Assembly: GCF_039645975.1 (NCBI RefSeq)
Contig: NZ_CP147918.1
Location: 682,001-746,000, forward strand
DNA length: 64,000 nucleotides
Direction: 5' to 3'
Origin: Sulfurimonas sp. HSL-1716
GTDB taxonomy: Bacteria; Campylobacterota; Campylobacteria; Campylobacterales; Sulfurimonadaceae
The notes under the pieces were generated by a model. It made no database searches. It was not told the origin of the DNA and saw nothing but the letters and a program-made list of their open reading frames with translations. The translations under genes and the position numbers were made by a program. The first letter of the stretch is position 1, and each line of letters opens with the position of its first letter. This document shows, piece after piece, positions 7,125 through 38,803 of the stretch.

Positions 7125-7143
7125 CCTTTAAATACAAAGGCTA
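7122..7143. terminator. Hairpin shared by the convergent stop codons of gdhA and pgpA
   Basis: TAGCCTTT (7122-7129), a 6-base loop, and AAAGGCTA (7136-7143) form a perfect 8-bp stem. The gdhA TAG is the left end and the pgpA TAG, on the other strand, is the right end. No T-run follows on either strand, so it is not a standard intrinsic terminator, but it could slow polymerase or protect both mRNA ends. Confidence 0.45.
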
Positions 7144-7650
7144 TGAAAAGTACTGTTGCAGTTTTAAGATTATCTGCCAGACAAGCGCAGAGGATATTCC
7201 CGCTGCAAATCCTGCAACGATATCGTCTGCCATCACTCCGAGTCCCCCTGTCATCTTTTTATCTATCCTGCCGATAATAGAAGGCTTCTTGATATCAAAA
7301 TATCTGAAAAACACAAAAGAGAGAATCGCTTGAATGACAAATCCGTTTTCATAGTTGAAGATATTGTCAAAATCAAGCATAACGCCAGGTGCGATGCTAA
7401 GGGCAAGCCACATGCCTGCCAGTTCGTCTATGACAATGCGTTTGTCGTCATGGACTGCGCTTTTTTGCTCATATTTGTTTATCTCTTTGACTGCGATTGC
7501 GGAGATCAAAAGCGTTAATGTGAACATAAGCTGAGAGCCGAGATACGCCGATAGGGGTATGCCGAGGATAAGGGCGACCAAAGAACCGACGGTGCCGGGT
7601 GCTTTTGGAAAAAGTCCGCTGTATCCCAATGTTATGAAAAACCAGTTCAT
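7141..7650 (-). CDS. pgpA: Phosphatidylglycerophosphatase A
   Basis: 169 residues from the ATG at 7650. Two earlier start codons are in frame at 7653 and 7656, but the AAGGG at 7656-7660 fits 7650 best. The protein removes the phosphate from phosphatidylglycerophosphate to make phosphatidylglycerol in the inner membrane. Family landmarks are GYSGLFPKAPGTVGSL at the N terminus, VIDELAGMW in the middle and GGLGVMADDIVAG near the C terminus, plus about four hydrophobic segments. It follows the ATP-sulfurylase-like gene by only 8 bases and is probably co-transcribed with it. Confidence 0.93.
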   Translation of the reverse strand: MNWFFITLGYSGLFPKAPGTVGSLVALILGIPLSAYLGSQLMFTLTLLISAIAVKEINKYEQKSAVHDDKRIVIDELAGMWLALSIAPGVMLDFDNIFNYENGFVIQAILSFVFFRYFDIKKPSIIGRIDKKMTGGLGVMADDIVAGFAAGISSALVWQIILKLQQYFS

Positions 7651-7658
7651 CATCACCC

Positions 7659-8849
7659 TTATGTCAAAGATGTCGTTTGATAAAGTGTCATAAGCTCTTT
7701 ATAAAAATCTTCTTCGGTATGGTTCTCTAGGAGCCCTCCGATAGGAAGAAGGTTATAGTAAAGCTTTTCAAGATTTGTAAACCTGTTTATAAACATTTTG
7801 GAGAGCAGTAACGCCGATATCTCTTTTCTCACTAAAACGGCAGGAGGAACGATGCCGAGTTTTAAAAGCTCGAGTATCGACTCGGCATGATAAGAGATAT
7901 GGTGATGCTGTCCGTGCGGGCAGGTACTCGTACTGACTAAAGTCTTGCAGACATTGCAGTAGACATATTCGCTTGCGATAGAGATCTCGATATCCAGATC
8001 CGTTACACGGTCGAGGATGGATTTGTGCGTGTTGCTGTCATAGTACATCCCAAGTCCTGCATGGTTTTGCCCGATAGTAAGTTTTGTACAGCCGTAGTTC
8101 TTCGCGACGATCGCATCGATGATTATTTCGTTGATCCCTGCAAAGATATAGTTTGATTCAAGAGGAACAATGATAACCCTGTTCTTTGGCAGATAGTTGT
8201 CCGTAAAATGTTTGAGAGCTTCATATCTGATACTGTATTTGAGGTCTGCCGTCTCATATGGCTTGAGCAAAAAGATGACTGTCAGATCGCTGTTTTCCAG
8301 CGACTGTCTGATAAGGCGTTCATGTGCTCTGTGCAGAGGATTTACCGCCATCATCAAAGCTGTGATGTTTTTTGCACCGATAAGATCGATAGAGTTCTTT
8401 ATGTAATCTTTGTGAAGATTGGGTACCTCTTTAGCAAGTGTATATTCACCGCAGACCGCATATTTTCCAAGGCGTTTGCTTGTCTGTCTTACGCCGGGAT
8501 GTGTTTCGTCATCCGTTCCGTATATGTGGCGGAGTCTCTCTTTTGGATCTATCTCAAAAACTTCGTCGACGATAAGCGTGGCAAAAAGTTTTTCGTTACA
8601 GATAAGGTCGAGTTCGTCGCCTGCTTTTGCTTCTTTAAGGACGCTCGCATTGCGTTTTCCCGAAGGAGCGAGGATGAACGGAAAAGGGAATGTTTTTTTA
8701 TTTATCGTCGAAGTGGAGAGTACTTCTGAAACTTCTCTTTTATTCATCAACGAAGTCGCAGGGTATAACAGGCCCGCTTTTAAAAACTCTAAAGCCGATG
8801 CTGCTTCAGGATCTATGAACAGGGAATTATTTTTTCTTTGTGATGCCAT
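7659..8849 (-). CDS. ATP-sulfurylase homologue lacking key catalytic residues
   Basis: 396 residues from the ATG at 8849, whose first codons overlap the regulator gene end by 23 bases; a longer reading to 8891 is possible but less likely. Overall layout is that of bacterial Sat (ATP + sulfate to APS + PPi): a PUA-like N-terminal domain, HRAH at 173-176 (the HXXH nucleotide motif), and a zinc-type cluster C298-x2-C301-x8-C310-P-H. However, the QTRN motif before HRAH is MAVN (167-170), GRDHAG is GQNHAG (260-265), and the SGTKxR region is replaced by SYHAES. Both catalytic arginines are therefore missing. It may be a non-catalytic homologue or act on another substrate. True sulfate activation is encoded by cysD/cysN at 28046-30360. 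Confidence 0.75.
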   Translation of the reverse strand: MASQRKNNSLFIDPEAASALEFLKAGLLYPATSLMNKREVSEVLSTSTINKKTFPFPFILAPSGKRNASVLKEAKAGDELDLICNEKLFATLIVDEVFEIDPKERLRHIYGTDDETHPGVRQTSKRLGKYAVCGEYTLAKEVPNLHKDYIKNSIDLIGAKNITALMMAVNPLHRAHERLIRQSLENSDLTVIFLLKPYETADLKYSIRYEALKHFTDNYLPKNRVIIVPLESNYIFAGINEIIIDAIVAKNYGCTKLTIGQNHAGLGMYYDSNTHKSILDRVTDLDIEISIASEYVYCNVCKTLVSTSTCPHGQHHHISYHAESILELLKLGIVPPAVLVRKEISALLLSKMFINRFTNLEKLYYNLLPIGGLLENHTEEDFYKELMTLYQTTSLT

Positions 8850-9714
8850 ATTTCTTTCTCTTTTCCCATAAGCTTTTTCTTGAGATTCCAAGTTTTTTGG
8901 AGAGTTCCGTATCAGGAAACTTGTGTTGATAATTTAAAACAATATATTTTACATAATCTTCGATAGGAAGTATATCGCTTTGGTCGAATATATTATTGTC
9001 GCTTTTGATCTCTACGATATCAAAATCCACGTCATCTATCTTATCCGTACTGGATACTATCACATTTCTGTCTTTTATAAGGTCTAAAAACTCTTTTTTC
9101 TCGGATTTTTTGATTACTTGAAAATCCGTAACATAAATGATGGTACTGATCGGCAGGGAAGCTATCTCGCTCATCGCTTTTGGATTTGTCAGTGAGACAA
9201 AATAAAGAGGTTTATTTTGCTTGTTCGCATATTTAAAAGCAAAGGAATCCGAATATTTTTGAAAGTTGCACGAGATAAATAGAGGCAGCTCAAGATTTTC
9301 AAAATTATGTTCGCTTGAGATTGAGGAGAAACTGTGGTTGAGATATCTTTCATACGATTCGGACTGGCGTTTGAGTCTTTCATAATCCTGAAAATGATTG
9401 ATCTTGCGGATCAGTTCTTCGATCATAAACGGTTTTAAGATGTAATCCTTTGCACCCGCCGAGAGCGGTTTTGAAACGGTATCGTTGCTGATATATGATA
9501 CCATCAGGATGACAATAGAGTTTTTAAACGCTTCTATAATCGGGTTGAAGTCCTGCCCGTTTATATTGGTAGAAAGAAGCACGACATCGTAAAGATTGCT
9601 TTTAAGCGCATCTTTCGTTGATGTACACATATCACAGATGTGACCCAGTTCCCCCAGCTTTGTCGCAATGCTTTGTGCCAGATAAATTTCATTTTCGATG
9701 ATTAGTATTTTCAC
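8827..9714 (-). CDS. Atypical NtrC-like regulator with degenerate receiver and degenerate ATPase core
   Basis: 295 residues starting with GTG at 9714, overlapping the ispDF stop by 4 bases (GTGA). Residues 1-110 form a receiver: acidic pair E7/E9, Ser73, and Lys94 in ILKPF. The phospho-acceptor Asp is replaced by Ser48 in VVLLSTN. Residues 140-245 have the spacing of a shrunken sigma-54 AAA+ core (a Walker-B-like IIYVTDF and a later VIVSST) but no P-loop. Residues 268-295 (ELSKKLGISRKSLWEKRKKYGI) are a Fis-type DNA-binding helix-turn-helix as in NtrC proteins. It is likely a DNA-binding protein that does not respond to ordinary phosphorylation; targets are unknown. Confidence 0.8.
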   Translation of the reverse strand: MKILIIENEIYLAQSIATKLGELGHICDMCTSTKDALKSNLYDVVLLSTNINGQDFNPIIEAFKNSIVILMVSYISNDTVSKPLSAGAKDYILKPFMIEELIRKINHFQDYERLKRQSESYERYLNHSFSSISSEHNFENLELPLFISCNFQKYSDSFAFKYANKQNKPLYFVSLTNPKAMSEIASLPISTIIYVTDFQVIKKSEKKEFLDLIKDRNVIVSSTDKIDDVDFDIVEIKSDNNIFDQSDILPIEDYVKYIVLNYQHKFPDTELSKKLGISRKSLWEKRKKYGITKKK

Positions 9715-10832
9715 TTATTTGTCCAATTAAAGTAGTTTAACGAAGCAGTAGACTGTACGCCTACTCCCTCTTTTCTTCCGATAAAACCCAGTTTTTCCGT
9801 TGTCGTTGCTTTTACGTTGACACGAAAAACAGGGATCTGCAGTATCGAAGACAATGTCTTTCTCATAATCTCTTTATACGCTCCGATCCTTGGAGTTTCG
9901 GCGATTATGGTTATGTCTACGTTTACTATACTATACCCAAAACTATAAAGACTCGTAACTACCTCTTTGAGCAGTATTTTCGAATCTATCCCCTTATAGC
10001 TTTCATCACTGTCGGGAAAAAGCGTACCGATGTCGCCCATTCCCGCGGCTCCCAAAAGAGCATCTATAAGTGAATGAATAGCTACGTCCCCGTCGCTGTG
10101 AGCTTTGAATCCAAAACTGTTTTCGATCTTCACTCCGCATAAGAACATTTCGCCTTTGTCGTCAAATGCATGGACATCAAACCCGTTTCCTATTAAAGCG
10201 GCGTTTGCGGGTCCTTTAAGACATTCCATCTCTTTGACATCACCTGCAAACGTAAGTTTAAAAGCATTTTCTTCTCCTTCAACAAATATCCTGCTACCCC
10301 CGCTTGCGGCTATAGCACTGCTTTCGTCCGTATATTCGATGTCGGTATCCAAAGCCTTTCTCAGCGTATCGGTGCGGGAGAGCTGAGGAGTCTGGATGCG
10401 GAGAACTTTGTCTCTGTCGATCGTGTTTTTGTCATACACGACGGTATCGTTTACGTTCAAAGCCGGGACGATGCAGTCGGCCTCATCTTTTTTTTCTAAA
10501 ATTTTAGCGAGCATCGCGTCGCTTATACAGGATCTTGCCACATCGGTAACAAGGACATACGGCGTATCTACATGCTTTAATGCATTTTTCAAAGATGCCT
10601 GACGGGATGCTCCGCCCTCTACTATTTTATTTTGTGTGTAACTGTGCATAAAGGTAACGTCGTGCTTTGATGCCGTTATAATGATATTTGAAAATATTTT
10701 TGCTTTTTCAAATCGGGAAGCTACAAAAAGCCATAACGGTTCATGACCGATTCTTAACCATTGCTTCTTAATAGGGCTGTTAAAGCGGGTAGAACCGCCG
10801 GCTGCAAGAATAATTAGTGTTAAATCAGACAA
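9711..10832 (-). CDS. ispDF: Bifunctional IspD/IspF enzyme of the MEP isoprenoid pathway
   Basis: 373 residues. The N-terminal half (to about 205) is IspD, MEP cytidylyltransferase, with LAAGGSTRF and the KKQWL substrate motif, then TDVARSC. The C-terminal half is IspF, MEcPP synthase, with GNGFDVHAF (metal-binding Asp/His), AHSDGDVAIHSLIDALLG and GDIGTLFPD. Fusion of the two is common in Campylobacterota. The start is TTG at 10832, preceded by AGGAG. A TATAAT at 10866-10871 on this strand is a fair -10. The 3' end overlaps the regulator start. Confidence 0.96.
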   Translation of the reverse strand: MSDLTLIILAAGGSTRFNSPIKKQWLRIGHEPLWLFVASRFEKAKIFSNIIITASKHDVTFMHSYTQNKIVEGGASRQASLKNALKHVDTPYVLVTDVARSCISDAMLAKILEKKDEADCIVPALNVNDTVVYDKNTIDRDKVLRIQTPQLSRTDTLRKALDTDIEYTDESSAIAASGGSRIFVEGEENAFKLTFAGDVKEMECLKGPANAALIGNGFDVHAFDDKGEMFLCGVKIENSFGFKAHSDGDVAIHSLIDALLGAAGMGDIGTLFPDSDESYKGIDSKILLKEVVTSLYSFGYSIVNVDITIIAETPRIGAYKEIMRKTLSSILQIPVFRVNVKATTTEKLGFIGRKEGVGVQSTASLNYFNWTNK

Positions 10833-21130: not shown

Positions 21131-22252
21131 ATGAATCAAAACAACGAAAATAATATGCAAGAAGATGAGATAGATATAAGAGAGCTTTTTAAAACGATTG
21201 TAAAATATAAAGTATTTATTTTTGTTTTCACGATTTTAGTTACAGTAGGGGCTGGGATATATGCCTTGATGAAAACACCAATATATGAAGTGAAATCTGA
21301 CATACAGGTAGGATATATAGGTGATGCCTTGCTCGGAGAACCTATAAGTATTAACAAAGAGCTTCGTGTTGTATTTCATGTGGATGACCAAAGCTCTAAT
21401 AAGAAAATAAAAAGTTTAGTTACAAACATATCTGTAAACAGACAAGTGAAAAATTTTATAGAGATCACTACGCAAGGTGTTTCTAATAATGAAGCGCTGA
21501 AAAAGAACAAAGAAGTTTTAACGTATGCACAAAACATTTACAAAAAGAAGATCGATAACTTTATAGAAAATACAAAAAACAGTATTGAAAATAGAAAGAA
21601 AGCTTTGCAATACGTAGATGAAATTGAAATCCCAGAAGTACAAAGAGAGATAGAAAAGCTAAAAACGCAGAAAATAGTTGAAGTTGACAACCAGATTGTT
21701 TTTTTACAAAAAAATGAGATATCTTCTTTAAATGAAAAAATAAAATCATATCAAAAACGCCTTACGGATTATATGTATTCCGTCGAAAAGCTGCAGCATT
21801 ATGATCTTAAAGATAAGTCTGAAAACATGATAGTTGCTATTCAGATGATGAACTATCAAAATCTTATACAAAATGCTCAAAACCAGATACAAAATTTAAA
21901 ACTGAAAAAAGATAAGATCGAGATGGAAGCCATTCCGAACCTAAAAGTTCAAAAAACGAATATACAACGCGATGATATCAAAAAATTAGAAGATAAAATT
22001 AATATCACTTTGAGAGATAAAAAAATCGATCTACAAAAAAATATCGATGATTTGGAGTATCTGACGAGTAGTGCAAATATTAAAAATACGGATATCGTAG
22101 GAAATTATGTCATTCATGATCATCCCGTCAAACCGAGAAAAAAACTTATTGTCGGTGTTGCGTTCGTAGCAGGATTTGTATTGTCCATTTTTTTGGTATT
22201 TTTTATGGAGTTCGTAAAAGGAATTAAAAAAGAAGAGGAAGCAGAAGCGTGA
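21131..22252 (+). CDS. Wzz-like polysaccharide chain-length regulator
   Basis: 373 residues with the layout of a Wzz/polysaccharide co-polymerase: a membrane helix at about 30-50 (KVFIFVFTILVTVGAGIYAL), a long periplasmic coiled-coil region rich in Lys, Glu, Asn and Ile (about 100-330), and a second helix at about 342-364 preceded by the proline motif DHPVKPRKK. There is no C-terminal tyrosine-kinase domain. It would set the length of the surface polysaccharide in the inner membrane. Its TGA overlaps the GTG start of galE, placing it at the head of the operon. Confidence 0.85.
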   Translation: MNQNNENNMQEDEIDIRELFKTIVKYKVFIFVFTILVTVGAGIYALMKTPIYEVKSDIQVGYIGDALLGEPISINKELRVVFHVDDQSSNKKIKSLVTNISVNRQVKNFIEITTQGVSNNEALKKNKEVLTYAQNIYKKKIDNFIENTKNSIENRKKALQYVDEIEIPEVQREIEKLKTQKIVEVDNQIVFLQKNEISSLNEKIKSYQKRLTDYMYSVEKLQHYDLKDKSENMIVAIQMMNYQNLIQNAQNQIQNLKLKKDKIEMEAIPNLKVQKTNIQRDDIKKLEDKINITLRDKKIDLQKNIDDLEYLTSSANIKNTDIVGNYVIHDHPVKPRKKLIVGVAFVAGFVLSIFLVFFMEFVKGIKKEEEAEA

Positions 22253-23268
22253 ACGTCCTTATAACAGGCGGAGCAGGGTATATCGGTTCACATGTTGTAA
22301 AACAGCTTTTGGAAACAACGGCATATAAAGTGACCGTAGTGGATAATCTCAGCACGGGAAGCAGAAAGACTCTTGATACGCTACGTGCTATTGGAGACTT
22401 CAAATTTATTGATTTGGACCTTAAAGAGTTTGATAAAGTAGCCGAACTTTTCACCAAGAGCAGCTTTGACACCGTTATCCATTTTGCCGCAAGCATCGTT
22501 GTTCCAGAATCGGTACAAAATCCTCTGAAATACTACATGAATAACACAGTCAATACGACAAATCTCATTAACTGTGCAGTGCAAAACGGCGTTAAAAAAT
22601 TCATCTTTTCAAGTACTGCAGCAGTCTATGGAGAGCCTCAGGAGATACCTGTTCTTGGCTTAGACGAGAAATTTGCCGTTGAGCCGATAAACCCCTACGG
22701 TATGAGCAAACTTATGAGCGAAAGAGTTTTGCAGGACACGGCAAAAGCGCATAAAGATTTTAAATATGTGATATTTAGATATTTCAATGTCGCGGGTGCA
22801 GATATTCATTATGAAAACGATACTCTCTTGCCGCGTATCGGACAAAGCTTTCCAAATGCTACGCATCTCATCAAGATCGCATCGGAATGTGCTTTGGGCA
22901 AACGCGACAAGATGGCGATATTCGGAGATGATTTTAATACAACGGACGGTACGGGAGTGAGAGATTACATCCATGTAGACGATCTGGCCGAAGCACATAT
23001 AAAAGCGGTGAAATATCTCAAAGAAAACGACAGTGATATCTTTAATATCGGGTATGGTAAGGGGTATTCGGTTAAGGAGGTTATCGAAACTATGAAAAAA
23101 GTTACATCTAATGATTTTCAGGTGGAGACTGCCCCAAGACGCGCAGGCGATCCTGCGGCACTGATATCGGATAACAGAAAAATAAAAAAGAAGATGGGAT
23201 GGATTCCCAGATATGAAGATCTGGGACTTATCTGTAAAAGTGCTTACGAGTGGGAAAAAAAACTGTGA
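22249..23268 (+). CDS. galE: UDP-glucose 4-epimerase
   Basis: 339 residues; extended short-chain dehydrogenase. GGAGYIGSH at the N terminus binds NAD, and SSTAAVYG followed by NPYGMSK supplies the catalytic Ser and the YxxxK pair. It interconverts UDP-Glc and UDP-Gal, or the N-acetyl forms; substrate breadth cannot be judged by eye. It starts with GTG at 22249, sharing GTGA with the previous stop. It supplies galactose-type donors to the island. Confidence 0.93.
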   Translation: MNVLITGGAGYIGSHVVKQLLETTAYKVTVVDNLSTGSRKTLDTLRAIGDFKFIDLDLKEFDKVAELFTKSSFDTVIHFAASIVVPESVQNPLKYYMNNTVNTTNLINCAVQNGVKKFIFSSTAAVYGEPQEIPVLGLDEKFAVEPINPYGMSKLMSERVLQDTAKAHKDFKYVIFRYFNVAGADIHYENDTLLPRIGQSFPNATHLIKIASECALGKRDKMAIFGDDFNTTDGTGVRDYIHVDDLAEAHIKAVKYLKENDSDIFNIGYGKGYSVKEVIETMKKVTSNDFQVETAPRRAGDPAALISDNRKIKKKMGWIPRYEDLGLICKSAYEWEKKL

Positions 23269-24590
23269 CGAACATAATTTTGTGCGGCGGAAGCGGAACG
23301 AGGCTGTGGCCCGTAAGCCGTACCTTGATGCCAAAACAGTTTGTGAAGCTTTTTAACGATAGATCGCTTTTCCAGTTAACGGTAGAGAGAAACTCCAAGG
23401 TATGCAGCGGGCAGTTCATCGTTTCAAACGCTGAGCAGTATTTTCTGGCACTCGATCAGCTTGAAGAGCTCAACCGCACCGGCAGTTCATATCTGCTTGA
23501 GCCCGTCGGAAGAAATACCGCCCCTGCGATCGCTTTGGCGTGTCTGGCGTTTGATGAGGAAGAAATACTTTTGATAACCCCTTCGGATCATCTTATAAAA
23601 AATCAGGAGGAGTATGAAAAAGTCCTCAAAAGAGCAAAAGAACTTGCACAAGAGAATTTTCTCGTTACTTTCGGTATAAAGCCGACATTTGCCGAAACGG
23701 GTTTTGGTTATATCGAAGCGGATGATGAGGATGTCAAGGCTTTTCATGAAAAACCTGATCTTGATACGGCTGAGAGATATATACAAAAGGGGAACCATTA
23801 CTGGAACTCCGGAATATTCTGCTTTAAAGCGGGGGTGTTTTTAGAAGAGCTGAAAAAGTATTCTCCCGATATTTACGAGAGTTCACGCGAGGCATATGCA
23901 AACAGCAAAAAAAACGAACTTATACGAGTAGCCTACGAAGATATGATAAAGATACCCGAAAACAGCATAGATTATGCGGTTATGGAAAAATCGGACAAAG
24001 TAAAGATCATCCCTTCGGACATATCCTGGAGTGATGTGGGGAGTTTCGATTCTCTCTCCTGCGAACTCCAAAACGACGCCAGTAACAATTTCATTATCTC
24101 AAATAAAAACGTAGAGACCATAGATATACAGGATTGCATTATCGTAGATACCAGTGATGCGCTTTTGGTATGCAAAAAAGGCAGCAGCCAAAAAGTCAAA
24201 GATATCGTGGCAAGATTGAAAAAAGAGAAGTCCGAACTACCGAACATCCATCTTACGGGGCATCGCCCTTGGGGGACATATACCGTTTTGGAAGACTCCA
24301 GCGGCTATAAGATCAAGCGCATAGAAGTCAGAGAAGGAAAAAGACTCTCTTTGCAAAAACACTACCATAGAAACGAACACTGGGTAGTGCTGAGCGGGAC
24401 GGCAACAGTGACCATAGAGGATAAGACATTTACGGTAAATCCTAATGAAAGCACATACATAAAAGCAGGTGATATCCATCGTCTTGAAAACAAAGGTAAG
24501 ACACCTTTGGTTATAATTGAAGTCCAAGTAGGCCGATATACTGGAGAAGACGATATAGTCAGACTCGACGATGACTTTACAAGGCAGTAG
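23265..24590 (+). CDS. manC: Mannose-1-phosphate guanylyltransferase / mannose-6-phosphate isomerase
   Basis: 441 residues from the GTG at 23265, which gives the same 4-base GTGA overlap as the preceding pair; an upstream GTG at 23250 would add five residues. The N-terminal nucleotidyltransferase has LCGGSGTRLWPVSR and PKQF (about 6-30), and FGYIEADDEDV and EKPD follow. The C-terminal cupin (about 345-441) begins with HRPWGTY and has QKHYHRNEHW metal-binding residues, the type II PMI domain. It makes GDP-mannose for gmd and fcl just downstream. Confidence 0.94.
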   Translation: MTNIILCGGSGTRLWPVSRTLMPKQFVKLFNDRSLFQLTVERNSKVCSGQFIVSNAEQYFLALDQLEELNRTGSSYLLEPVGRNTAPAIALACLAFDEEEILLITPSDHLIKNQEEYEKVLKRAKELAQENFLVTFGIKPTFAETGFGYIEADDEDVKAFHEKPDLDTAERYIQKGNHYWNSGIFCFKAGVFLEELKKYSPDIYESSREAYANSKKNELIRVAYEDMIKIPENSIDYAVMEKSDKVKIIPSDISWSDVGSFDSLSCELQNDASNNFIISNKNVETIDIQDCIIVDTSDALLVCKKGSSQKVKDIVARLKKEKSELPNIHLTGHRPWGTYTVLEDSSGYKIKRIEVREGKRLSLQKHYHRNEHWVVLSGTATVTIEDKTFTVNPNESTYIKAGDIHRLENKGKTPLVIIEVQVGRYTGEDDIVRLDDDFTRQ

Positions 24591-25712
24591 ATGAAAAAGA
24601 AAAAAGTAGCATTAATAACAGGAGTAACAGGGCAGGACGGTTCGTATCTTGCGGAATTCTTGCTGAAGAAAGGCTATCTTGTCCACGGCATCAAAAGAAG
24701 AAGTTCCCTTCTAAACACAGACAGGATAGATCATATCTATGAAGACCCGCATGTAGAAAACAGAAACTTTATCCTTCATTACGGCGATATGACGGATTCT
24801 ATGAATCTGACTAGAATCATTCAAGAAACACAGCCTGACGAGATCTATAATCTTGCGGCGATGAGCCATGTGCATGTAAGCTTTGAAACACCGGAATACG
24901 TAGCAAATGCGGACGGCACGGGAACTTTAAGGATCCTTGAAGCAGTAAGGCTGTTAGGATTGGAAAAAAAGACGAAAATATACCAGGCATCGACCTCGGA
25001 GCTGTACGGAAAAGTGCAGGAGACCCCTCAAAACGAGGCTACGCCTTTTTATCCGAGAAGCCCGTACGCAGTTGCAAAGATGTATGCGTATTGGATAACC
25101 GTCAATTACCGCGAAGCTTACGGCATATTCGCGTGTAACGGTATTCTTTTTAACCATGAATCTCCCGTCAGGGGAGAGACGTTCGTGACCAGAAAGATCA
25201 CAAGAGCTGCAAGCAAGATAGCACTTGGTCTTCAGGACAAACTCTATCTAGGTAATCTCGATGCAAAACGCGACTGGGGTCATGCAAAAGACTACGTGCG
25301 TATGATGTGGATGATCCTTCAGACCGACGAGCCCGAGGACTGGGTTATCGCAACCGGACAGACGACGACCGTAAGAGAGTTTGTCAAGATGGCGTTCTTG
25401 TATGCGGGGATAGAGCTGGAGTTCAGAGGCGAGGGCATAGATGAAAAAGCTTACGTCAAATCCTGCTCAAACCCTCAGTACAAGATGGAAATCGGCAAGG
25501 AAGTAGTGGCTGTCGATCCGAGATATTTCAGACCGACCGAGGTCGACCTTCTTTTAGGCGATCCGACAAAAGCGGAGCAGAAACTGGGTTGGAAAAGAGA
25601 ATATGACCTGCAGGATCTGGTAAACGATATGATGCGGTCCGATCTGAAACTGATGACAAAAGACGTGTATCTTCAAGAAGGCGGCTATAAAACCATGAGC
25701 TATTTTGAATAG
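24591..25712 (+). CDS. gmd: GDP-mannose 4,6-dehydratase
   Basis: 373 residues, typical length. [19 protein letters not shown] at the N terminus and IKRRSS identify Gmd; [19 protein letters not shown] holds the catalytic Thr/Ser-Glu, and [12 protein letters not shown] the YxxxK. NADP-dependent, it converts GDP-mannose to the 4-keto-6-deoxy intermediate. Its ATG directly abuts the manC stop. With fcl it makes GDP-L-fucose, though the intermediate could also feed other 6-deoxy sugars. Confidence 0.96.
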
Positions 25713-25725
25713 GACTGTTTGAGAA

Positions 25726-26691
25726 ATGGATAAAAACGGTAAGATCTATTTGGCAGGTCATAAAGGGCTTGCAGGCAGCGCCATACTAAATAACCTTTTA
25801 TCCAAAGGCTATACGAATATAGTCTGCAAAACACATGACGAGCTCGATCTGACGGATCAGCAGGCGGTAGCTGCTTTTTTTGAAAAAGAGAAACCGGAGT
25901 ATGTCATACTTGCAGCCGCCAAAGTAGGAGGCATAGCCGCCAACAACACTTACAGGGCAGATTTTATCTATGAGAATCTGCAGATACAAAATAACGTTAT
26001 ACATCAAAGCTATCTGCATAAAGTAAAGAAGCTGCTTTTTTTGGGTTCTACCTGCATCTATCCAAAAAATGCTCCTCAACCGATGAAAGAAAAGTATCTT
26101 CTTACAAGTGAGCTTGAATATACAAATGAGCCATATGCAATAGCAAAGATCGCCGGTATCAAGATGTGCGAGAGTTACAATATCCAGTACGGTACGAACT
26201 TTATAAGCGTAATGCCTACAAATCTCTACGGCCCAAACGATAATTTTGATCTTGAAACTTCCCATGTGCTTCCGGCACTTCTTAGAAAGATACATGAAGC
26301 AAAGGTGAACAATGTGTCAAAAGTAGAGATTTGGGGAAGCGGAGAACCCAGACGAGAATTTCTTTACAGCGAAGATATGGCCGATGCCTGTATATTTTTG
26401 ATGGAAAACATAGATTTTAAAGATATGTACGACAAAAACGCAAAAGAGATAAGAAACACACATATAAACCTCGGTACGGGAAAGGATATATCCATCAGAG
26501 AACTGGCGTATCTTATAAAAGATATAACAGGGTATCAAGGCGAGTTCTATTTTAATGCGGATAAAGAAGACGGAACGATGGTCAAGCTTACGGATTCGTC
26601 AAAACTTCATGCACTCGGATGGAAACATACTATTGAGCTAAAAAAAGGTATTGAAACTGCATATGAAAGGTATGTAAATAATGTTAGATAA
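25726..26691 (+). CDS. fcl: GDP-L-fucose synthase
   Basis: 321 residues. [10 protein letters not shown] is the Rossmann loop; [17 protein letters not shown] supplies the catalytic Ser and Cys and [18 protein letters not shown] the Tyr-Lys pair. It epimerises and reduces the Gmd product with NADPH to give GDP-L-fucose. The gene is 13 bases behind gmd and overlaps cysQ by 11 bases. No fucosyltransferase can be identified by sequence alone nearby. Confidence 0.95.
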
Positions 26692-27436
26692 CATAAACCT
26701 AGAAGATATAAAAGATATAGCTAGACAGGCCGGTGAGGTTATTATGCAAATTTACAATAAAGACTTTGATATAGAATATAAAGATGACAGTTCACCCTTG
26801 ACAGAAGCCGATCTTAAGTCCAATGAACTCATCTGCAGTGCTTTAAATGCACTGTATCCTGCTATTCCTATCTTATCGGAAGAGAATAAGGTCATTGAGT
26901 ATGAAGAAAGAAAAAGCTGGACATATTATTGGTGTATCGATCCGATCGACGGTACAAAGGAGTTTATAAAAAAGAACGGTGAATTTACCGTAAATATCGC
27001 ATTGATTCATAAAAACGAACCCGTTTTGGGTGTTGTCTATGCTCCTGCGCTAGGCGATATATATTATGCAAAAAAAGGATTCGGTTCGTATAAAAATGTA
27101 GAAAAACTGCCTTTAAAAATAAATACCTTCCCAAAAGAAAAACTTTATGTGGTTGCATCAAAATCCCACTTGTCACCGGAGACGCAAGCCTTTATCGACA
27201 ATCTTGAAACCAAAGAGATCGAACAAGTTTCAAAAGGCAGTTCTTTAAAGCTTTGTATGGTTGCAGAAGGAGAAGCGGATATCTATCCAAGACTGGCACC
27301 TACGATGGAATGGGATACGGCAGCTGCAGATGCAATAGTGAGGGAAAGCTCAAAAATGAGTTATCAATTCGATACGAACGAACCTTTGAAATACAATAAA
27401 GAGAACCTGTTGAACCCTTGGTTTGTGGTGAAGTAA
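26681..27436 (+). CDS. cysQ: 3'(2'),5'-bisphosphate nucleotidase CysQ
   Basis: 251 residues of the inositol-monophosphatase fold. Metal-site motifs are ILSEEN near residue 67, DPIDGTKEF near 88 and EWDTAAAD near 210. It hydrolyses PAP (left over after PAPS donates sulfate) to AMP. The placement directly before cysC, cysD and cysN makes a PAPS-supply and PAP-recycling unit, which fits either cysteine synthesis or sulfation of a surface glycan. The ATG is 11 bases inside fcl, and the stop abuts cysC. Confidence 0.93.
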
Positions 27437-28045
27437 ATGGATAAAAACATAGTCTGGCATGATCATCGTGTGACAAAAAAAGAGAGAAGCAAAATCACAA
27501 AGCAAGAACCCTGTGTTTTATGGTTTACTGGACTTAGCGGAAGCGGCAAATCTACTATAGCCAATACTCTTGAAGAGATATTGCATAATAACAAAAATCT
27601 TACCTATGTGCTGGATGGAGATAATATCCGCCATGGATTAAACAGCGACCTTGATTTTAGCGATAAAAGCAGAAATGAAAATATCAGGCGGATAGGGGAA
27701 GTGGCAAAACTTTTTATCGATAGCGGATTGATAGTAATCACGGCTTTTATCTCTCCTTTCATTAGTGATAGAAAAATGGTTAAAGATTTGGTAGAAAAGG
27801 GTGAATTTATTGAAATTTTTGTAGACACTCCTCTGGAAATCTGCGAAAGCAGAGATCCAAAAGGTCTTTATAAAAAAGCAAGAGCAGGTGAAATAAAAGA
27901 CTTCACGGGAATCGATTCACCGTACGAACCGCCTGTTTTACCTGACATTCATATTATAAACGATAATATTTCTGTAGAACAAGCCTGTCAACAGATCATC
28001 AATTATTTAGTAGAGCATAAATATATAAGTTGGAGAGAGAACTAA
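27437..28045 (+). CDS. cysC: Adenylylsulfate kinase
   Basis: 202 residues. FTGLSGSGKST is the P-loop (about 30-40), DGDNIRHGL binds APS, NENIRRIGEVAKLF follows, and RDPKGLYKKARAGEIKDFTGIDSPYE is the lid region. It phosphorylates APS to PAPS. A soluble, standard-length enzyme with all visible active-site motifs. It abuts cysQ and cysD on both sides. A second, membrane-associated APS kinase homologue follows cysN, so the operon encodes two. Confidence 0.96.
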   Translation: MDKNIVWHDHRVTKKERSKITKQEPCVLWFTGLSGSGKSTIANTLEEILHNNKNLTYVLDGDNIRHGLNSDLDFSDKSRNENIRRIGEVAKLFIDSGLIVITAFISPFISDRKMVKDLVEKGEFIEIFVDTPLEICESRDPKGLYKKARAGEIKDFTGIDSPYEPPVLPDIHIINDNISVEQACQQIINYLVEHKYISWREN

Positions 28046-28957
28046 ATGTTGAATGAGCAAAGATTAACACATTTAAAACAGTTAGAAGCAGAATCCATTT
28101 TTATTCTTCGTGAGGTAGCCGCGGAATTTAGCAATCCTGTCATGATGTATTCGATCGGAAAAGATTCATCGGTAATGCTTCACCTTGCGCAGAAAGCTTT
28201 TGCCCCGAGCAAGATACCGTTTCCGTTATTGCATGTGGATACTCTTTGGAAGTTTAAAGAGATGATAGAGTTTCGTGACAAACGTGCCAAAGAGATCGGA
28301 TTTGATTTAATCGTACATAGTAATCCTGAGGGTATCGATATGGATGTATCACCCTTTGAACATGGAAGTAAGGTCCATACCGATATTATGAAAACAGAAG
28401 GGCTGAAGCAGGCTTTAAATAGCGGCGGTTATGATGCGATCATCGGTGGAGCAAGACGCGATGAAGAGAAAAGCCGTGCAAAAGAGCGCATATTCTCTTT
28501 TCGCGATAAAAATCATAGATGGGATCCTAAAAACCAGCGCCCGGAACTTTGGAACCTTTATAATACGAAGATTCAAAAAGGCGAAAGTGTAAGGGTATTT
28601 CCGATATCGAACTGGACGGAACTGGATATCTGGCAATATATATATCTGGAAAAAATACAGATACCCTCCCTTTATTTTGCAAAAGAGCGTCCTGTTGTCG
28701 AGTATGAAGGTACAAAGATCATGGTCGATGATGAGAGAGTACCAAACGAGCTAAAAAAGAAAGCTAAAAAAGAGATGGTTCGTTTTAGAACACTCGGATG
28801 TTATCCGCTTACGGGAGCAATCAATTCGACTGCTGCTACATTGCCAGAAATAATTAAAGAGATGCTTCTTTCAACCAGCAGCGAAAGAGAAGGCCGTCTT
28901 ATAGATAAAGATCAAGAAGGTGCGATGGAACGTAAAAAAATAGAGGGATATTTTTGA
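28046..28957 (+). CDS. cysD: Sulfate adenylyltransferase small subunit CysD
   Basis: 303 residues of the PP-loop ATPase family. [20 protein letters not shown] is the PP-loop, [20 protein letters not shown] is a strongly conserved CysD segment, and [13 protein letters not shown] lies near the C terminus. With CysN it makes APS from sulfate and ATP, driven by GTP hydrolysis. It starts immediately after the cysC stop and overlaps cysN by one base (TGATG). It is the authentic sulfate-activating enzyme of this window, unlike the degenerate Sat homologue at 7659-8849. Confidence 0.97.
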
Positions 28958-30360
28958 TGGACATAGAAGCTTACTTAAAACAGCATGAAAACAAAGATAT
29001 GCTTCGCTTTTTGACTTGCGGCAGTGTCGATGACGGAAAAAGTACGCTGATCGGCCGTATGCTTTATGATTCAAAGATGGTTTTTGAAGATCAACTCTCA
29101 GCAGCCGAAAGTGAGAGTAAAAAGTACGGTACTACAGGTGAAAAGATAGATATGGCTTTACTGGTAGACGGTCTTCAAAGTGAAAGGGAACAAGGCATTA
29201 CCATAGATGTGGCATATCGATTCTTTGCGACGGAAAACAGAAAGTTCATTATTGCCGATACTCCGGGTCATGAACAATATACACGAAATATGGTCACGGG
29301 CGCGTCGACGGCTGATGTTGCCATTATACTCATAGATGCCCGTAAGGGTATTCTGACACAAACCCGCAGACATAGCTTTATAGTGTCTTTACTCGGTATA
29401 GAACATGTCATAGTGGCGATCAATAAAATGGATCTGGTCGATTTTTCCCAAGAGGTTTTCAATGAGATCGGTGTCGCTTACGATAAGCTGGCAGATAAAC
29501 TCGGGATCAAGCATAAATATTATATTCCTTTAAGTGCATTAAATGGAGATAACGTCGTCAATATAAGCGAATCAATGTCATGGTATGAAGGCAAACCGCT
29601 TTTGACCCTTCTTGACACGATGGATATAACAAAAGAGCAAAAAGCAGAACAGTTCAGATTTCCCGTGCAATATGTAAATCGTCCAAACTTGGACTTTAGA
29701 GGGTTTTGCGGAACTGTCGTATCTGGAAGTATCAAGGTCGGTGATGAAATCACTGTTCTGCCCTCAGGTAAAAGCGCAAAAATAAAAAGTATAATTAATG
29801 CAGGCGATATTACGGAAAATAACTTGTATGTAACTACCCAAGAAGCGTTTCGTGATATGGCTGTTACGATAATGACCGAAGAGGAGATCGATATCTCCCG
29901 GGGAGATATGCTGGTACATTCAAACGCTCTGCCGAGCGTATCGAATAATATCAAGGTTATGATAGTTTGGATGGATGAAAAACCGATGGAACTTCATCGA
30001 AATTATGATATCAAAAGAGCCACGACGATTTTATCCGGAAGCATTGAAAAGATAAACTATAAAATAGATGTAAATACTTTTGAGAGGATGCAGGTAGAAA
30101 GGCTGGAGTTAAATGATATAGCGTCATGCAGAATGGTGTTGAGCCGTCCTATCGCAGCTGATGCGTATAAAGAGAATAAACCGACAGGGAGTTTTATAGT
30201 GATAGACCGCATTACGAACAATACGGTCGGTGCAGGTATGATAGTAGGCTTAAGCAGAAGAGATAACGATACAATAAAAAAAGAATATACGATCGAGGAA
30301 AAAGAGCTCAATGCGTATGTTAGAAAACATTTTCCTGAATGGGACTGTAAAGCAATCTAA
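28957..30360 (+). CDS. cysN: Sulfate adenylyltransferase GTPase subunit CysN
   Basis: 467 residues from the ATG at 28957 (a TTG three bases earlier is possible). GTPase motifs: GSVDDGKSTLIGRML (G1), DTPGHEQYTRNM (G3) and NKMDLVDF (G4), followed by EF-Tu-like beta-barrel domains. It is CysN only, without a fused C-terminal CysC domain; APS kinase is encoded separately on both sides. It overlaps cysD by one base and the next gene by one base (TAATG). Confidence 0.97.
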   Translation: MDIEAYLKQHENKDMLRFLTCGSVDDGKSTLIGRMLYDSKMVFEDQLSAAESESKKYGTTGEKIDMALLVDGLQSEREQGITIDVAYRFFATENRKFIIADTPGHEQYTRNMVTGASTADVAIILIDARKGILTQTRRHSFIVSLLGIEHVIVAINKMDLVDFSQEVFNEIGVAYDKLADKLGIKHKYYIPLSALNGDNVVNISESMSWYEGKPLLTLLDTMDITKEQKAEQFRFPVQYVNRPNLDFRGFCGTVVSGSIKVGDEITVLPSGKSAKIKSIINAGDITENNLYVTTQEAFRDMAVTIMTEEEIDISRGDMLVHSNALPSVSNNIKVMIVWMDEKPMELHRNYDIKRATTILSGSIEKINYKIDVNTFERMQVERLELNDIASCRMVLSRPIAADAYKENKPTGSFIVIDRITNNTVGAGMIVGLSRRDNDTIKKEYTIEEKELNAYVRKHFPEWDCKAI

Positions 30361-31085
30361 TGTATAAAGAAACGAACCTGAGATCCATTGTAAAGGGAAT
30401 GAGTTGGCGATTATTCGCTACAGCGACAACAGTTATCATTGTTTATGTGTTCTTTGGAAGGCTTGATCTTGCAATTGCAGCAGGTATTATTGAAACAGTC
30501 GCAAAAGTTGCACTTTACTGGGCACATGAACGTGCATGGGTCAAGATCAGATGGGGCAAAAGAAAAATAGAACCGTTCAACCTTTGGTTCACAGGACTTC
30601 CGCTTTCTGGAAAAACGACTATTGCCGATAGGGTATACAAAGAGCTTGAAAAACTCGATATTCCGCTTGAAAGAATCGATTCTAAAGATATAAGAGAACT
30701 TATTCCGCATATCGGATTTAGCAGAGAAGATAGAAACAGGCATATGCATCGTATCGGTCATCTCATAAAAACACTTCAAAATAATTCTATCTCAACGGTT
30801 GCTTCATTCGTGAGTCCCTATAAAGAGTCTAGAAAAGCGATCCGGGAGATGGTAAAAAACAATGTTGTCGTATATGTGAAAGCCGATATTGAAACTTGTA
30901 AGGCGAGGGATTATAAAGGAGTATACGAGAAGGCTCTGAAAGGTGAATATCAAAACTTTACCGGTATTAATGACGTATATGAAGAACCGCAGCATGCAGA
31001 AATAATCATAGATACGGATCAGCTCAGTGTAGATGAATCGGTAAGCACAATACTAAAATATATAAAAAAAAGGTATATTACATAG
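30360..31085 (+). CDS. DUF2061 membrane domain fused to an APS-kinase-like domain
   Basis: 241 residues. Residues 5-62 match the DUF2061 pattern: RSIVKGMSWRLFATATT, two short hydrophobic helices, then ETVAKVALYWAHERAW. Residues 74-241 are CysC-like: P-loop GLPLSGKTT (79-87), SREDRNRHMHRIGHL, and RDYKGVYEKALKGEYQNFTG. The DGDxxR motif of CysC is altered to DSKDIR, so activity is probable but not certain. The membrane domain would hold APS phosphorylation at the inner membrane. Its immediate neighbours are cysN and a sugar dehydratase, which fits PAPS delivery to a membrane sulfotransferase. No sulfotransferase lies in this window. Confidence 0.85.
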   Translation: MYKETNLRSIVKGMSWRLFATATTVIIVYVFFGRLDLAIAAGIIETVAKVALYWAHERAWVKIRWGKRKIEPFNLWFTGLPLSGKTTIADRVYKELEKLDIPLERIDSKDIRELIPHIGFSREDRNRHMHRIGHLIKTLQNNSISTVASFVSPYKESRKAIREMVKNNVVVYVKADIETCKARDYKGVYEKALKGEYQNFTGINDVYEEPQHAEIIIDTDQLSVDESVSTILKYIKKRYIT

Positions 31086-31086
31086 G

Positions 31087-32277
31087 ATGAATAAAATACT
31101 AAAATTAATAGGCAGAGAAAAAGAACTTTTTACCGAAGATATTCAATTTTATGAAAAAGAACTTTCACAAAAAGTTTCGTCATCATCTTTTTTAGTTATA
31201 GGCGGAGCCGGCAGTATCGGTCAGGCCGTAACAAAAGAGATATTTAAACGCCACCCTAAAAAGCTCCATGTCGTAGATATATCCGAAAACAATATGGTCG
31301 AACTTGTACGTGATATACGAAGCAGTTTTGGATATATAGAGGGTGATTTTCAGACTTTTGCACTCGATATCGGAAGTATCGAATATGACGCTTTTATAAA
31401 GGCTGACGGTAAATATGACTATGTTTTGAATTTATCTGCACTCAAACATGTAAGAAGTGAAAAAGATTCTTTTACTCTGATGCGTATGATCGATGTTAAT
31501 ATTTTCAATACGGATAAGACACTCCAGCAGTCTATTGAAAACGGAACTAAAAAATATTTTTGCGTCAGTACGGATAAAGCTGCAAATCCGGTAAATATGA
31601 TGGGTGCAAGCAAAAGGATCATGGAGATGTTCGTGATGAGAAGGTCTCAGCAGATAGATGTTTCTATGGCACGATTTGCCAATGTTGCTTTTAGTGACGG
31701 TTCGCTTCTTCACGGATTTAATCAAAGGATTCAAAAACAGCAGCCGATCGTAGCGCCGAATGATATCAAAAGATATTTTGTAACTCCGCAGGAGAGCGGC
31801 GAACTTTGTCTAATGAGCTGCATATTCGGTGAAAATAGAGATATATTCTTTCCAAAGCTCAGTGAAAATCTGCATCTTATAACTTTTGCGGATATTGCGG
31901 TAAAATATCTAAAAGATTTGGGTTATGAACCGTATCTGTGCGAAAGTGAAGACGAAGCGAGAGAGCTGGCGAAGACATTGCCTCCGCTTGGCAAATGGCC
32001 CTGTCTTTTTACTTCAAGCGATACGACAGGCGAGAAGGATTTTGAAGAGTTCTTTACCGAGAGGGAAATTTTGGATATGGAGCGGTTTGAAAACCTCGGT
32101 ATCATCAAAAACGAGCTTCTCTTTGATGAGAATCTTTTAAATGAATTTGAAGAAACTGTTAAAAAATATAAAACAAAACAATCCTGGACAAAAGAGCAGA
32201 TCGTTGCTCTGTTTTTTAAGATGATCCCGGATTTCGGACATAAAGAGACAGGTAAATACTTAGATGGAAAAATGTGA
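31087..32277 (+). CDS. legB: Sugar-nucleotide 4,6-dehydratase, LegB role (GDP/UDP-GlcNAc)
   Basis: 396 residues of the soluble CapD/PglF-type dehydratase family. VIGGAGSIGQAV (about 36-47) binds NAD(P); the SALKHVRSEKDSF segment and STDKAANPVNMMGASKR hold active-site residues. The usual YxxxK Tyr is Met (MGASK), as in the PglF-like subgroup. An N-terminal lead of about 33 residues and a C-terminal extension make it longer than C. jejuni Cj1319. Standing directly before legC, it most likely starts legionaminic acid synthesis by making the 4-keto-6-deoxy sugar from GDP-GlcNAc. The gene overlaps legC by one base. Confidence 0.8.
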   Translation: MNKILKLIGREKELFTEDIQFYEKELSQKVSSSSFLVIGGAGSIGQAVTKEIFKRHPKKLHVVDISENNMVELVRDIRSSFGYIEGDFQTFALDIGSIEYDAFIKADGKYDYVLNLSALKHVRSEKDSFTLMRMIDVNIFNTDKTLQQSIENGTKKYFCVSTDKAANPVNMMGASKRIMEMFVMRRSQQIDVSMARFANVAFSDGSLLHGFNQRIQKQQPIVAPNDIKRYFVTPQESGELCLMSCIFGENRDIFFPKLSENLHLITFADIAVKYLKDLGYEPYLCESEDEARELAKTLPPLGKWPCLFTSSDTTGEKDFEEFFTEREILDMERFENLGIIKNELLFDENLLNEFEETVKKYKTKQSWTKEQIVALFFKMIPDFGHKETGKYLDGKM

Positions 32278-33416
32278 TGCAAAAGATTGTTAATTTTGTT
32301 CAAGATATTTATAACACGAAAGAGTTTATTTCTTTGCATGAGCCTAGGTTCATAGGCAATGAAAAAAAATACCTGAACGAATGTATTGACTCTACTTTTG
32401 TTTCATCAGTCGGAAAGTTTGTAGACGAATTTGAAAAAAAGATCGCTGAATTTACGGGGGTAAAATATGCCGTTGCCACAACCAATGGAACCAGTGCTTT
32501 ACATATTTCATTGCTTTTGGCAGGAGTACAAAACGGCGACGAAGTAATAACTCAACCTTTGACGTTCATCGCTACATGCAATGCGATAAGCTACTGTAAT
32601 GCACAACCGGTCTTTGTAGATGTAGATCTCGATACACTTGGACTTTCTCCTTCATCATTAGAGAAATTCCTGAACGAGAACTGTGAGGTAAAAGAGAACC
32701 GATGTGTCAATAGAATTACGGGAAAAATCGTAAAAGCCTGTGTACCGATGCACACGTTTGGACATCCATGCAGAATTGACGAAATAAAAGATATCTGTGA
32801 TAAGTGGCATATAGTTTTAGTCGAAGATGCAGCAGAAAGCCTGGGAAGTTATTATAAAGGCAGACATACCGGAACTTTTGGGAAACTGGCCGCTATCAGC
32901 TTCAACGGAAATAAGATAATCACTTCGGGCGGCGGCGGCTGTATTATCACAAATGATGAAGAACTGGCAAAAAAAGCCAAGCATATGACAACGACTGCAA
33001 AAGTACCGCATAGATGGGAATATACCCATGATATGATAGGTTACAACTATCGCCTTCCCAATATTAATGCAGCACTTTTAGTGGCTCAACTAGAACAATT
33101 AGAAGTGTTCTTGCAAAATAAAAGAGAACTTGCAAAAGAGTATGAAGGTTTTTTTGCCGACTTGACAGATATAGAATTTATAAAAGAACCGCAAGACAGC
33201 AGATCAAACTACTGGCTGCATGCAGTATCGTTAAAAGACAGAGCCCATAGAGACGCGTTCTTAAAGTTCACTAATGAGAACGGCGTGATGACAAGACCTA
33301 TCTGGACACTGATGAACAGGCTTGAGATGTTCAAAGAATGTCAATGTACGGATATCTCAAACTCGGTCTACCTTGAAGACAGAATAGTGAACATCCCAAG
33401 TTCGGTGAGAATATAG
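32277..33416 (+). CDS. legC: LegC aminotransferase (GDP-4-amino-4,6-dideoxy-GlcNAc)
   Basis: 379 residues from the ATG at 32277 (overlap TGATG with the dehydratase; a GTG at 32274 is possible). DegT/DnrJ/EryC1/StrS fold: TTNGTSALHISLLLAGV, EDAAESLGSYY, and the PLP lysine K213 in SFNGNKIITSGGGG. It transfers an amino group to C4 of the 4-keto sugar. The N-terminal HEPRFIGNEKKYLNECIDSTFVS pattern is typical of LegC. It abuts the acyltransferase gene. Confidence 0.92.
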   Translation: MQKIVNFVQDIYNTKEFISLHEPRFIGNEKKYLNECIDSTFVSSVGKFVDEFEKKIAEFTGVKYAVATTNGTSALHISLLLAGVQNGDEVITQPLTFIATCNAISYCNAQPVFVDVDLDTLGLSPSSLEKFLNENCEVKENRCVNRITGKIVKACVPMHTFGHPCRIDEIKDICDKWHIVLVEDAAESLGSYYKGRHTGTFGKLAAISFNGNKIITSGGGGCIITNDEELAKKAKHMTTTAKVPHRWEYTHDMIGYNYRLPNINAALLVAQLEQLEVFLQNKRELAKEYEGFFADLTDIEFIKEPQDSRSNYWLHAVSLKDRAHRDAFLKFTNENGVMTRPIWTLMNRLEMFKECQCTDISNSVYLEDRIVNIPSSVRI

Positions 33417-33989
33417 ATGGAAAAGATCATCCTTATCGGCGGCGGCGGTCATTGTAAATCTTGCATAGATGTGATTGAGCAGGAAGGCAGATTCGAGATA
33501 GCCGGTATAATCGATCAGGCCGAATTGATAGGGAAAAAGGTCTTAGGTTATGAAGTCATAGGCAGTGATGCCGATCTCGATACATTGGCGCAGAAATACA
33601 GATTCGCATTTATTGCGGTCGGGCAGATCAGATCTTCGGAGGTAAGAGTAAGGCTCTTTGAACTGGCAAAAAGAGCAGGATTTGAACTGCCTGTGGTGAT
33701 CTCCCCTAGAGCTTATGTGTCAAAACATGCCAAGGTAGAAGAGGGGACTATCATAATGCATGACGCTCTTGTAAATGCCGATGCAAAAATCGGCAGGAAC
33801 TGCATCATAAACTCAAAAGCACTTATAGAGCATGATGCGGTCGTAGAAGATAACTGTCATATATCGACAGGTGCGATCATCAATGGCGGAACAGTAGTGA
33901 AATCAAATACGTTTTACGGAAGCAGTGCGACCTCAAAAGAGAATACAGAAGCATCAGGTTTCGTAAAAGCCGGGAGTGTCGTAAAATGA
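33417..33989 (+). CDS. NeuD/PglD-type sugar N-acetyltransferase (LegH role)
   Basis: 190 residues. A Rossmann-like N-terminal part begins MEKIILIGGGGHCKSCIDVIE, the PglD/NeuD signature, and a left-handed beta helix of hexapeptide repeats runs from about residue 95 to the end (VEEGTIIMHDALVNADAKIG and following). His in LIEHDAVVEDNCHIS is the expected catalytic base. It probably acetylates the 4-amino group made by LegC; C. jejuni LegH is a GNAT-like enzyme instead, so the role is by position. ATGA overlap with legI. Confidence 0.85.
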   Translation: MEKIILIGGGGHCKSCIDVIEQEGRFEIAGIIDQAELIGKKVLGYEVIGSDADLDTLAQKYRFAFIAVGQIRSSEVRVRLFELAKRAGFELPVVISPRAYVSKHAKVEEGTIIMHDALVNADAKIGRNCIINSKALIEHDAVVEDNCHISTGAIINGGTVVKSNTFYGSSATSKENTEASGFVKAGSVVK

Positions 33990-38102: not shown

Positions 38103-38803
38103 AGAATGTACTATGTACTATATGTGCTCGAGGCGGTTCCAAAGGTGTGAAAAATAAAAATATCAAAGAGATAAACGGTAAGCCTCTTATAGCTTATACG
38201 ATCGAACAGGCTAAAGCTTCCGGATTATTTGAGCATATTGTGATCAGTACCGATTCGGATGAAATAGCTGATACTGCCAAAAAATACGGTGCTGAAGTGT
38301 TCTTTAAAAGAAGTGCTGAAATGGCAGGTGATACCGCAGGTAAGCTGGATGTCATAAAAGATGCTTTTATGAAGAGTGAAGAATATTACGGTAAGAAATT
38401 TGACTATTTGATAGATCTGGATGTAACCGCACCGCTTAGAAGCGTTGAAGATATAGTAGATTCGTTCGAACAGTTCATACAAAACGACAATGATAATCTT
38501 ATCACGGCTATGCCGAGCAGACGAAGCCCTTATTTTAATCTTGTAGAAGTAGATAAGAACGGTAAAGTAGAACTCTCCAAGAAACTGGACGATACGGTTG
38601 TAAGAAGACAAGACGCACCAAAAAGCTATGATATGAACGCCTCGATCTATATATGGAAAAGAGATACCATATTAAATGAAAATTCTATCTTTTTGGAAAG
38701 AACAGGTCTATACGTAATGCCCGAAGAAAGATCGATCGATATAGACAATGAACTTGATTTTGAATTTGTAGAGTTTTTGATGAGGAAACAAGATGCTAGA
38801 TAG
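38099..38803 (+). CDS. legF: CMP-N,N'-diacetyllegionaminic acid synthetase
   Basis: 234 residues of the CMP-sialate synthetase family. CARGGSKGVKNKNIKEINGKPL at the N terminus is the CTP-binding signature; DLDVTAPLRSVEDI carries the metal-binding Asp, and the RRQDAPKSYDMNASIYIW segment is typical of LegF/PtmB. It activates legionaminic acid with CTP for transfer by a glycosyltransferase. It overlaps ptmA by 11 bases, as expected for the ptmB-ptmA pair. Confidence 0.93.
   Translation: MKNVLCTICARGGSKGVKNKNIKEINGKPLIAYTIEQAKASGLFEHIVISTDSDEIADTAKKYGAEVFFKRSAEMAGDTAGKLDVIKDAFMKSEEYYGKKFDYLIDLDVTAPLRSVEDIVDSFEQFIQNDNDNLITAMPSRRSPYFNLVEVDKNGKVELSKKLDDTVVRRQDAPKSYDMNASIYIWKRDTILNENSIFLERTGLYVMPEERSIDIDNELDFEFVEFLMRKQDAR

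Follow-up and report, generated by a model that had tools for sequence, protein, structure and literature searches.

An ATP-sulfurylase-like protein of the Campylobacterales that has lost the sulfate-binding residues and carries a conserved zinc-histidine motif

Introduction

What does a protein named sulfate adenylyltransferase do in the Campylobacterales when the residues by which such enzymes hold sulfate are missing? The question is raised by a gene of Sulfurimonas sp. HSL-1716 lying in a stretch of 64,000 nucleotides (contig NZ_CP147918.1, positions 682,001 to 746,000 of the forward strand), which we call the window. This gene (7659..8849, minus strand; ORF, Pfam and alignment) encodes a full-length ATP-sulfurylase-like protein of 396 amino acids without the sulfurylase signature. 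Two publications list Sat in Sulfurimonas (PMC4584964; PMC7952632); the first, a review of the genus, gives a Sat-type enzyme a role in assimilating sulfate. A proteomic study of Nautilia counted a sulfate adenylyltransferase, which may or may not be the divergent protein, as part of sulfur respiration (PMC10092268). In both cases the name has steered published interpretation. No description of an inactive or repurposed sulfurylase of the Campylobacterales was found in the open-licence literature searched. At stake is an order-wide protein under a misleading name. Its positional counterpart in Campylobacter jejuni has been reported essential in two major food-borne pathogens. The alternative set out below, in which the groove chemistry is lost and a new zinc-histidine motif and tail are present, would clear sulfur-cycle reconstructions of an erroneous entry.

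Results

Family membership, distribution and descent

The open reading frame, on the minus strand, comprises 396 codons uninterrupted by stops; its ATG is at 8849 and its stop codon at 7659. The protein matched PF01747 (184.7 bits) and, at its N-terminus, the PUA_2 domain (65.7 bits; residues 4-139, 8433..8840, minus strand; Pfam), and by homology and fold it belongs to the Sat-type ATP sulfurylase family (EC 2.7.7.4). Both NCBIfam models for sulfate adenylyltransferase scored it below cut-off, at 201.2 where 387 is required and at 137.2 where 322.95 is required; of eight canonical control proteins, seven passed the first threshold and five the second. A profile search of the 2.26-Mb genome found no second PF01747 gene, the window gene being the sole copy. 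PUA_2 is missing in three relatives of one genus (L088, L094 and L099; 288-289 amino acids), in which HRAHE, the zinc-histidine motif and the tail are still present.

A PF01747 match was obtained in 307 of the 397 genomes of the phylum sample and in 53 of its 68 genera, and among the matches listed the carriers were Campylobacterales throughout. One hundred stretches were taken, non-randomly, to span genera; 98 hold the divergent form, one a canonical copy only (L109) and one a weak fragment without a recognisable gene (L108). To the 98 were added 12 loci from a sequence scan, one plasmid copy (L151) and the window protein, giving 112 aligned rows. The motif counts below cover these rows, which are part of the 307 PF01747 genomes, in a search centred on the Campylobacterales. 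In the FastTree phylogeny, a branch whose local support is full sets all 112 apart and the canonical copies form a separate clade, bearing out the idea that the substitutions mark a conserved clade; the divergent form has one origin, and the clades within it largely match species families. The dN/dS ratio was 0.028-0.09 in the seven of 26 pairs with dS < 1 (the other 19 had dS > 1 or were saturated), and the gene is under purifying selection. The window gene is thus not decaying, as the original prediction, made from the DNA letters alone, had maintained. Decay was rejected as a general account on the intact reading frame, the conservation in 112 rows and these ratios.

The plasmid copy comes from Sulfurovum mangrovi (NZ_CP087125.1, 106-3945), where the whole ispDF-regulator-sulfurylase-like-pgpA cluster resides on a 395-kb replicon; its sulfurylase-like gene is frameshifted near the end and was retained as an alignment row.

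Catalytic positions

The motif sequences of the window protein are ALMMAVNPLHRAHE (QTRN region), TIGQNHAG and CNVCKTLVSTSTCPHGQHHHISYHAESILELL. We compared the 112 rows with 11 canonical sulfurylases, six from the Campylobacterales and five plasmid-borne from other phyla, all 11 of which have the Arg of QTRN, the Arg of GRD and the Thr and Arg of SGTxxR. All three motifs proved non-canonical in the window protein, as originally predicted, and the relatives, checked for the canonical residues, hardly differ: MAVN replaces QTRN (residues 167-170, 8340..8351, minus strand), with Q and R each in 0/112; GQNHAG replaces GRDHAG (residues 260-265, 8055..8072, minus strand), with R in 11/112 and D in 0/112; and HAESIL replaces SGTxxR (residues 321-326, 7872..7889, minus strand), with T323 in one row, R326 in seven and Thr and Arg together in a single row. 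The loss of this last segment had been called correctly but located at SYHAES, two residues to the left of its true partner in the alignment. Neither of two further canonical invariants, the Met-Arg of MRYAG and R249, occurs in any of the 112 rows. Because the same losses recur across 112 aligned relatives, the pattern is far beyond chance.

In the ATP sulfurylase of A. vinosum, sulfate is contacted by Gln199 and Arg201, the alpha-phosphate by Thr200 and Asn202 and pyrophosphate by Arg365, and the binding site is described as virtually identical across enzymes (PMC3779200). Every sulfate-contact side chain named in that paper is absent from the divergent family, and the equivalent of Asn202 is present in only 47 of the 112 rows. 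The positions that gripped the anion have become Ala, Gly or Val (R169) and Gln, Glu, Lys or Arg (R261). Fifteen catalytic sites have a mean conservation percentile of 57 within the divergent family (random expectation 50, P 0.17), as against 92 in canonical enzymes. A protein with these residues lacks the known means of binding sulfate or pyrophosphate.

Retained groove residues, a zinc-histidine segment and a new tail

Part of the nucleotide-binding groove has been kept. HRAHE (residues 173-177, 8319..8333, minus strand; alignment) retains the HxxH(E) pattern, with H173 in 80, H176 in 109 and E177 in all 112 rows, and both histidines together in 78; since 32 rows have Asn or Thr in place of H173 and three have lost H176, ligand binding through HxxH would not be universal. 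H263, whose equivalent contacts ribose in the A. vinosum enzyme (PMC3779200), is found in 95/112.

The strongest conservation lies elsewhere. A zinc knuckle is continued into the motif C-x2-C-x8-CPHGxHHHIxY (residues 298-320, 7890..7958, minus strand; alignment), in which the zinc ligands C298, C301, C310 and H312 are each present in 112/112, as is P311, followed by G313 and H315 (111 each), H316 (109), Y320 (108) and H317 (106); the new-motif sites reach a mean conservation percentile of 97 within the divergent family. A C-terminal extension ending FYxELxxLYQTTSLT (residues 356-396, 7662..7784, minus strand; alignment) is similarly constrained (G372 and F382 in 110/112, Y383 in 112/112), LYQTTSLT being the common ending, and has no counterpart in the canonical enzymes, all 11 of which show a gap at G372 and the later counted tail positions. 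Neither this motif nor the tail figured in the original prediction, nor did the 23-nt overlap and the order-wide spread of the gene.

In canonical enzymes the adenine-binding strand is connected to the pyrophosphate-binding helix by the zinc segment (PMC3779200), from which we infer that the new histidines would occupy the former pyrophosphate-holding site. This placement of the zinc/HHH segment and tail in the groove rests on canonical structures, because the predicted model is weak exactly there (see below).

The zinc-tail module was also sought in 80 genomes, 77 without a PF01747 match, one with a canonical copy only (G122), one with a fragment only (G376) and G000 as positive control. Matches were confined to G000 and the canonical G122 copy, and among these genomes no module surviving alone was found. 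A PDB search with the module profile matched sulfurylases only.

Comparison with solved structures and canonical copies

The predicted model has a mean pLDDT of 78.7, with low confidence at the zinc/HHH segment and the tail, and its nearest solved structures are ATP sulfurylases. The whole fold, to about residue 356, is common to the Thermus thermophilus enzyme (1v47; Z 33.0, rmsd 2.5, 331 residues aligned), and the whole fold is likewise common to those of Methanothermococcus (8a8d/8a8g; Z 30.5, rmsd 3.0-3.1, 333-336 aligned), with 27-28% identity and a common zinc site. Unlike these enzymes, the window protein lacks the sulfate, alpha-phosphate and pyrophosphate contacts and has gained CPHGxHHHIxY and the tail. 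With phosphopantetheine and nicotinamide-nucleotide adenylyltransferases (PPAT and NMNAT), only the nucleotidyltransferase core is common (residues 159-356; about 150 residues aligned at Z about 15 and rmsd about 3), whereas the zinc knuckle and PUA_2 are features of the window protein. These single-domain nucleotidyltransferases carry HxGH and an ISSTxxR-type motif; on inspection of its sequence, the window protein has HRAH but no ISSTxxR-type motif. No unrelated fold family besides the nucleotidyltransferases emerged from the structure comparison, which effectively covered residues 4-358.

Canonical Sat copies are rare in the Campylobacterales. Those in L003-L007 and L109 (for example L003 1072-2121, L004 1078-2127 and L109 5676-6743) come from the same fold family and the same order as the divergent gene, but hold QTRN, GRD and SGTxxR (one with SAT for SGT) and lack the tail. 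In L004 and L109 the canonical copy is preceded by an APS-kinase-like ORF, and in both of these as well as in L003 it is followed by a pyruvate-kinase-like ORF (names by eye).

Gene neighbourhood

The gene lies between a response regulator of the HP1021/Cj1608 (CemR) kind (8827..9714, minus strand; position and domains) and pgpA (7141..7656, minus strand; PF04608, 131 bits), with ispDF further upstream in the cluster (9711..10832, minus strand; ORF and locus comparison). The 3' end of the regulator overlaps the start of the gene by 23 nt (8827..8849, minus strand; ORF coordinates). Among 110 loci, the window excluded, the regulator is immediately upstream in 104 and missing from that place in five, and one locus is ended by a contig edge. 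Of the 104, 94 show an overlap of the two genes, and in 81 its length is exactly the 23 nt seen in the window; the coupling to neighbours claimed for the window gene is supported. Downstream, pgpA is found on the same strand in 94/110 loci, and ispDF is upstream in most. The 23-nt junction is unusually fixed.

The loci without an adjacent regulator are L053, L058, L060, L140 and L107. In the first four, all of one family, the gene stands elsewhere, divergent from a queH-like gene, and is itself followed by a small lipoprotein gene (names by eye). Two of the genomes with the relocated gene were searched (G044 and G134), and both have a regulator at another place. A search of 76 genomes lacking the sulfurylase-like gene detected the regulator in 69 (E < 1e-27), and it is therefore more widespread than that gene; as these genomes and the five loci illustrate, the two do not invariably occur together.

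Sulfate activation in the window and in the phylum

The actual sulfate-activation genes of the genome, cysC-cysD-cysN (27437..30360, plus strand; profile search, names beyond CysD/CysN by eye), lie within a surface-glycan locus, so the original statement that CysD/CysN serve real sulfate activation holds. The region 26681-31085 (plus strand), inside about 21131-40562, comprises a cysQ-like gene, cysC, cysD, cysN and a second APS-kinase-like gene, accompanied by neuB/neuC-like genes (partly by eye). Because cysC-cysD-cysN sit among nucleotide-sugar genes, glycan sulfation is suggested, and the locus probably supplies PAPS for this purpose and not for assimilation.

Of the 307 genomes with PF01747, 77 had a CysD score above cut-off, compared with 33 of the 90 without. 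There was no positive association between the two across the 397 genomes, the tendency being in the opposite direction (odds ratio 0.58, P 0.044, uncorrected for relatedness). CysH, sought with TIGR00434 only, gave no match above cut-off in any of 80 carriers, the window genome included. A link of the divergent gene to sulfate assimilation was rejected on these two results. Reading the genes next to the divergent gene, in the window and at five relatives' loci, revealed no APS kinase.

Discussion

In C. jejuni, Cj1607 is IspDF, with Cj1608 and Cj1609 next in order (PMC4435418), and Cj1608 is the HP1021-type regulator CemR, an orphan that can be deleted in this species (PMC11334517). Cj1609 occupies the same place after ispDF and the regulator and is matched to the window gene by gene order. 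Annotated as a sulfate adenyltransferase, it is listed as essential only in C. jejuni and C. coli, and is also core to C. lari and C. hyointestinalis (PMC10077673). The mariner transposon used in that study carried a resistance gene with a promoter and a putative terminator (PMC10077673), so a polar effect on pgpA may have entered the essentiality call, and the reported essentiality of Cj1609 is possibly due to such polarity.

Catalytic parts lost across the order, together with a new zinc-histidine motif and tail that stay unchanged, point to a function other than sulfate activation; a textbook enzyme has genuinely been repurposed throughout the order. The new role originally proposed finds support, since sulfurylase chemistry is lost while the gene is not decaying, is coupled to its neighbours and forms a conserved clade. 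We consider it fairly probable that the gene is a neofunctionalised Campylobacterales paralogue of ATP sulfurylase that no longer activates sulfate and still binds a nucleotide or nucleotide-like ligand. Such a ligand would be held by the retained half of the groove, namely the second His of HxxH and, in the GRD loop, the Gly and His that contact ribose, and the zinc-stapled, histidine-rich segment replacing the pyrophosphate wall would, with the tail, read out or act on it. The rebuilt wall and tail would convert the state of the ligand into an effect on a partner, new transfer catalysis being less likely. It is quite possible, though we would not press it, that the former pyrophosphate wall was rebuilt as a zinc-linked histidine site with a Campylobacterales-specific, non-sulfate function that is essential in some pathogenic Campylobacter, as a metal-dependent nucleotide enzyme or as a nucleotide/redox sensor acting via the tail. 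More tentatively, the protein may be a binder or scaffold, a ligand-gated non-sulfurylase protein on whose tail a partner docks. A sensor role, also raised in the original prediction, is possible.

We rank this binder or scaffold form a little higher than a new nucleotidyltransferase or adenylate-handling enzyme with a neutral or non-oxyanion acceptor, in which HxxH would act on the alpha-phosphate and the CPHGxHHHIxY histidines would replace SGTxxR. We regard such an enzyme as rather doubtful: the retention of H176 (109/112), E177 (112/112) and H263 (95/112), the new histidines placed directly ahead of the helix that formerly bore SGTxxR and the reported essentiality of Cj1609 would all suit it, but HxxH is complete in only 78 of the 112 rows, the remaining groove loops drift freely, the alpha-phosphate Asn is kept in 47 rows only, and an obvious substrate supplier is absent among the neighbours across loci. 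The suggestion of a nucleotidyltransferase for another anion is not supported: the anion-gripping positions R169 and R261 are now neutral and variable, and this speaks against the mere replacement of sulfate by a different oxyanion. It is very improbable that, its unusual residues notwithstanding, the protein has remained an ATP sulfurylase working in sulfate assimilation, as the Sulfurimonas literature proposes. The fold, the zinc site and HxxH are retained and Sat is listed for the genus (PMC4584964; PMC7952632), but the sulfate-contact side chains named in PMC3779200 are all lost, CysH exceeded its cut-off in 0/80 carriers and CysD shows no positive association, and no APS kinase adjoins the gene in the window or five loci, in contrast to the canonical copies in L004 and L109.

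The neighbourhood suggests another reading, in which the protein would serve the overlapping CemR/HP1021-type regulator specifically, as its partner or modulator. The regulator is itself an orphan and stands upstream in 104/110 loci, with the exact 23-nt overlap in 81/104. We judge this reading unlikely, given the regulator in 69/76 genomes that lack the gene, the four loci of one family without an adjacent regulator (with one elsewhere in G044 and G134) and the published finding that Cj1608 can be deleted while Cj1609 is reported essential; because of this last difference, the regulator is unlikely to be the sole partner. That the gene is a decaying pseudogene, or is maintained solely because its transcription or translation is coupled to that of pgpA, is scarcely credible: three relatives have lost PUA_2 and the plasmid copy is frameshifted, but residues are invariant across 112 rows and the dN/dS ratios are low.

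A further observation concerns an aerotolerant derivative of Campylobacter coli, in which the sat change A290V is among those listed (PMC5366326).
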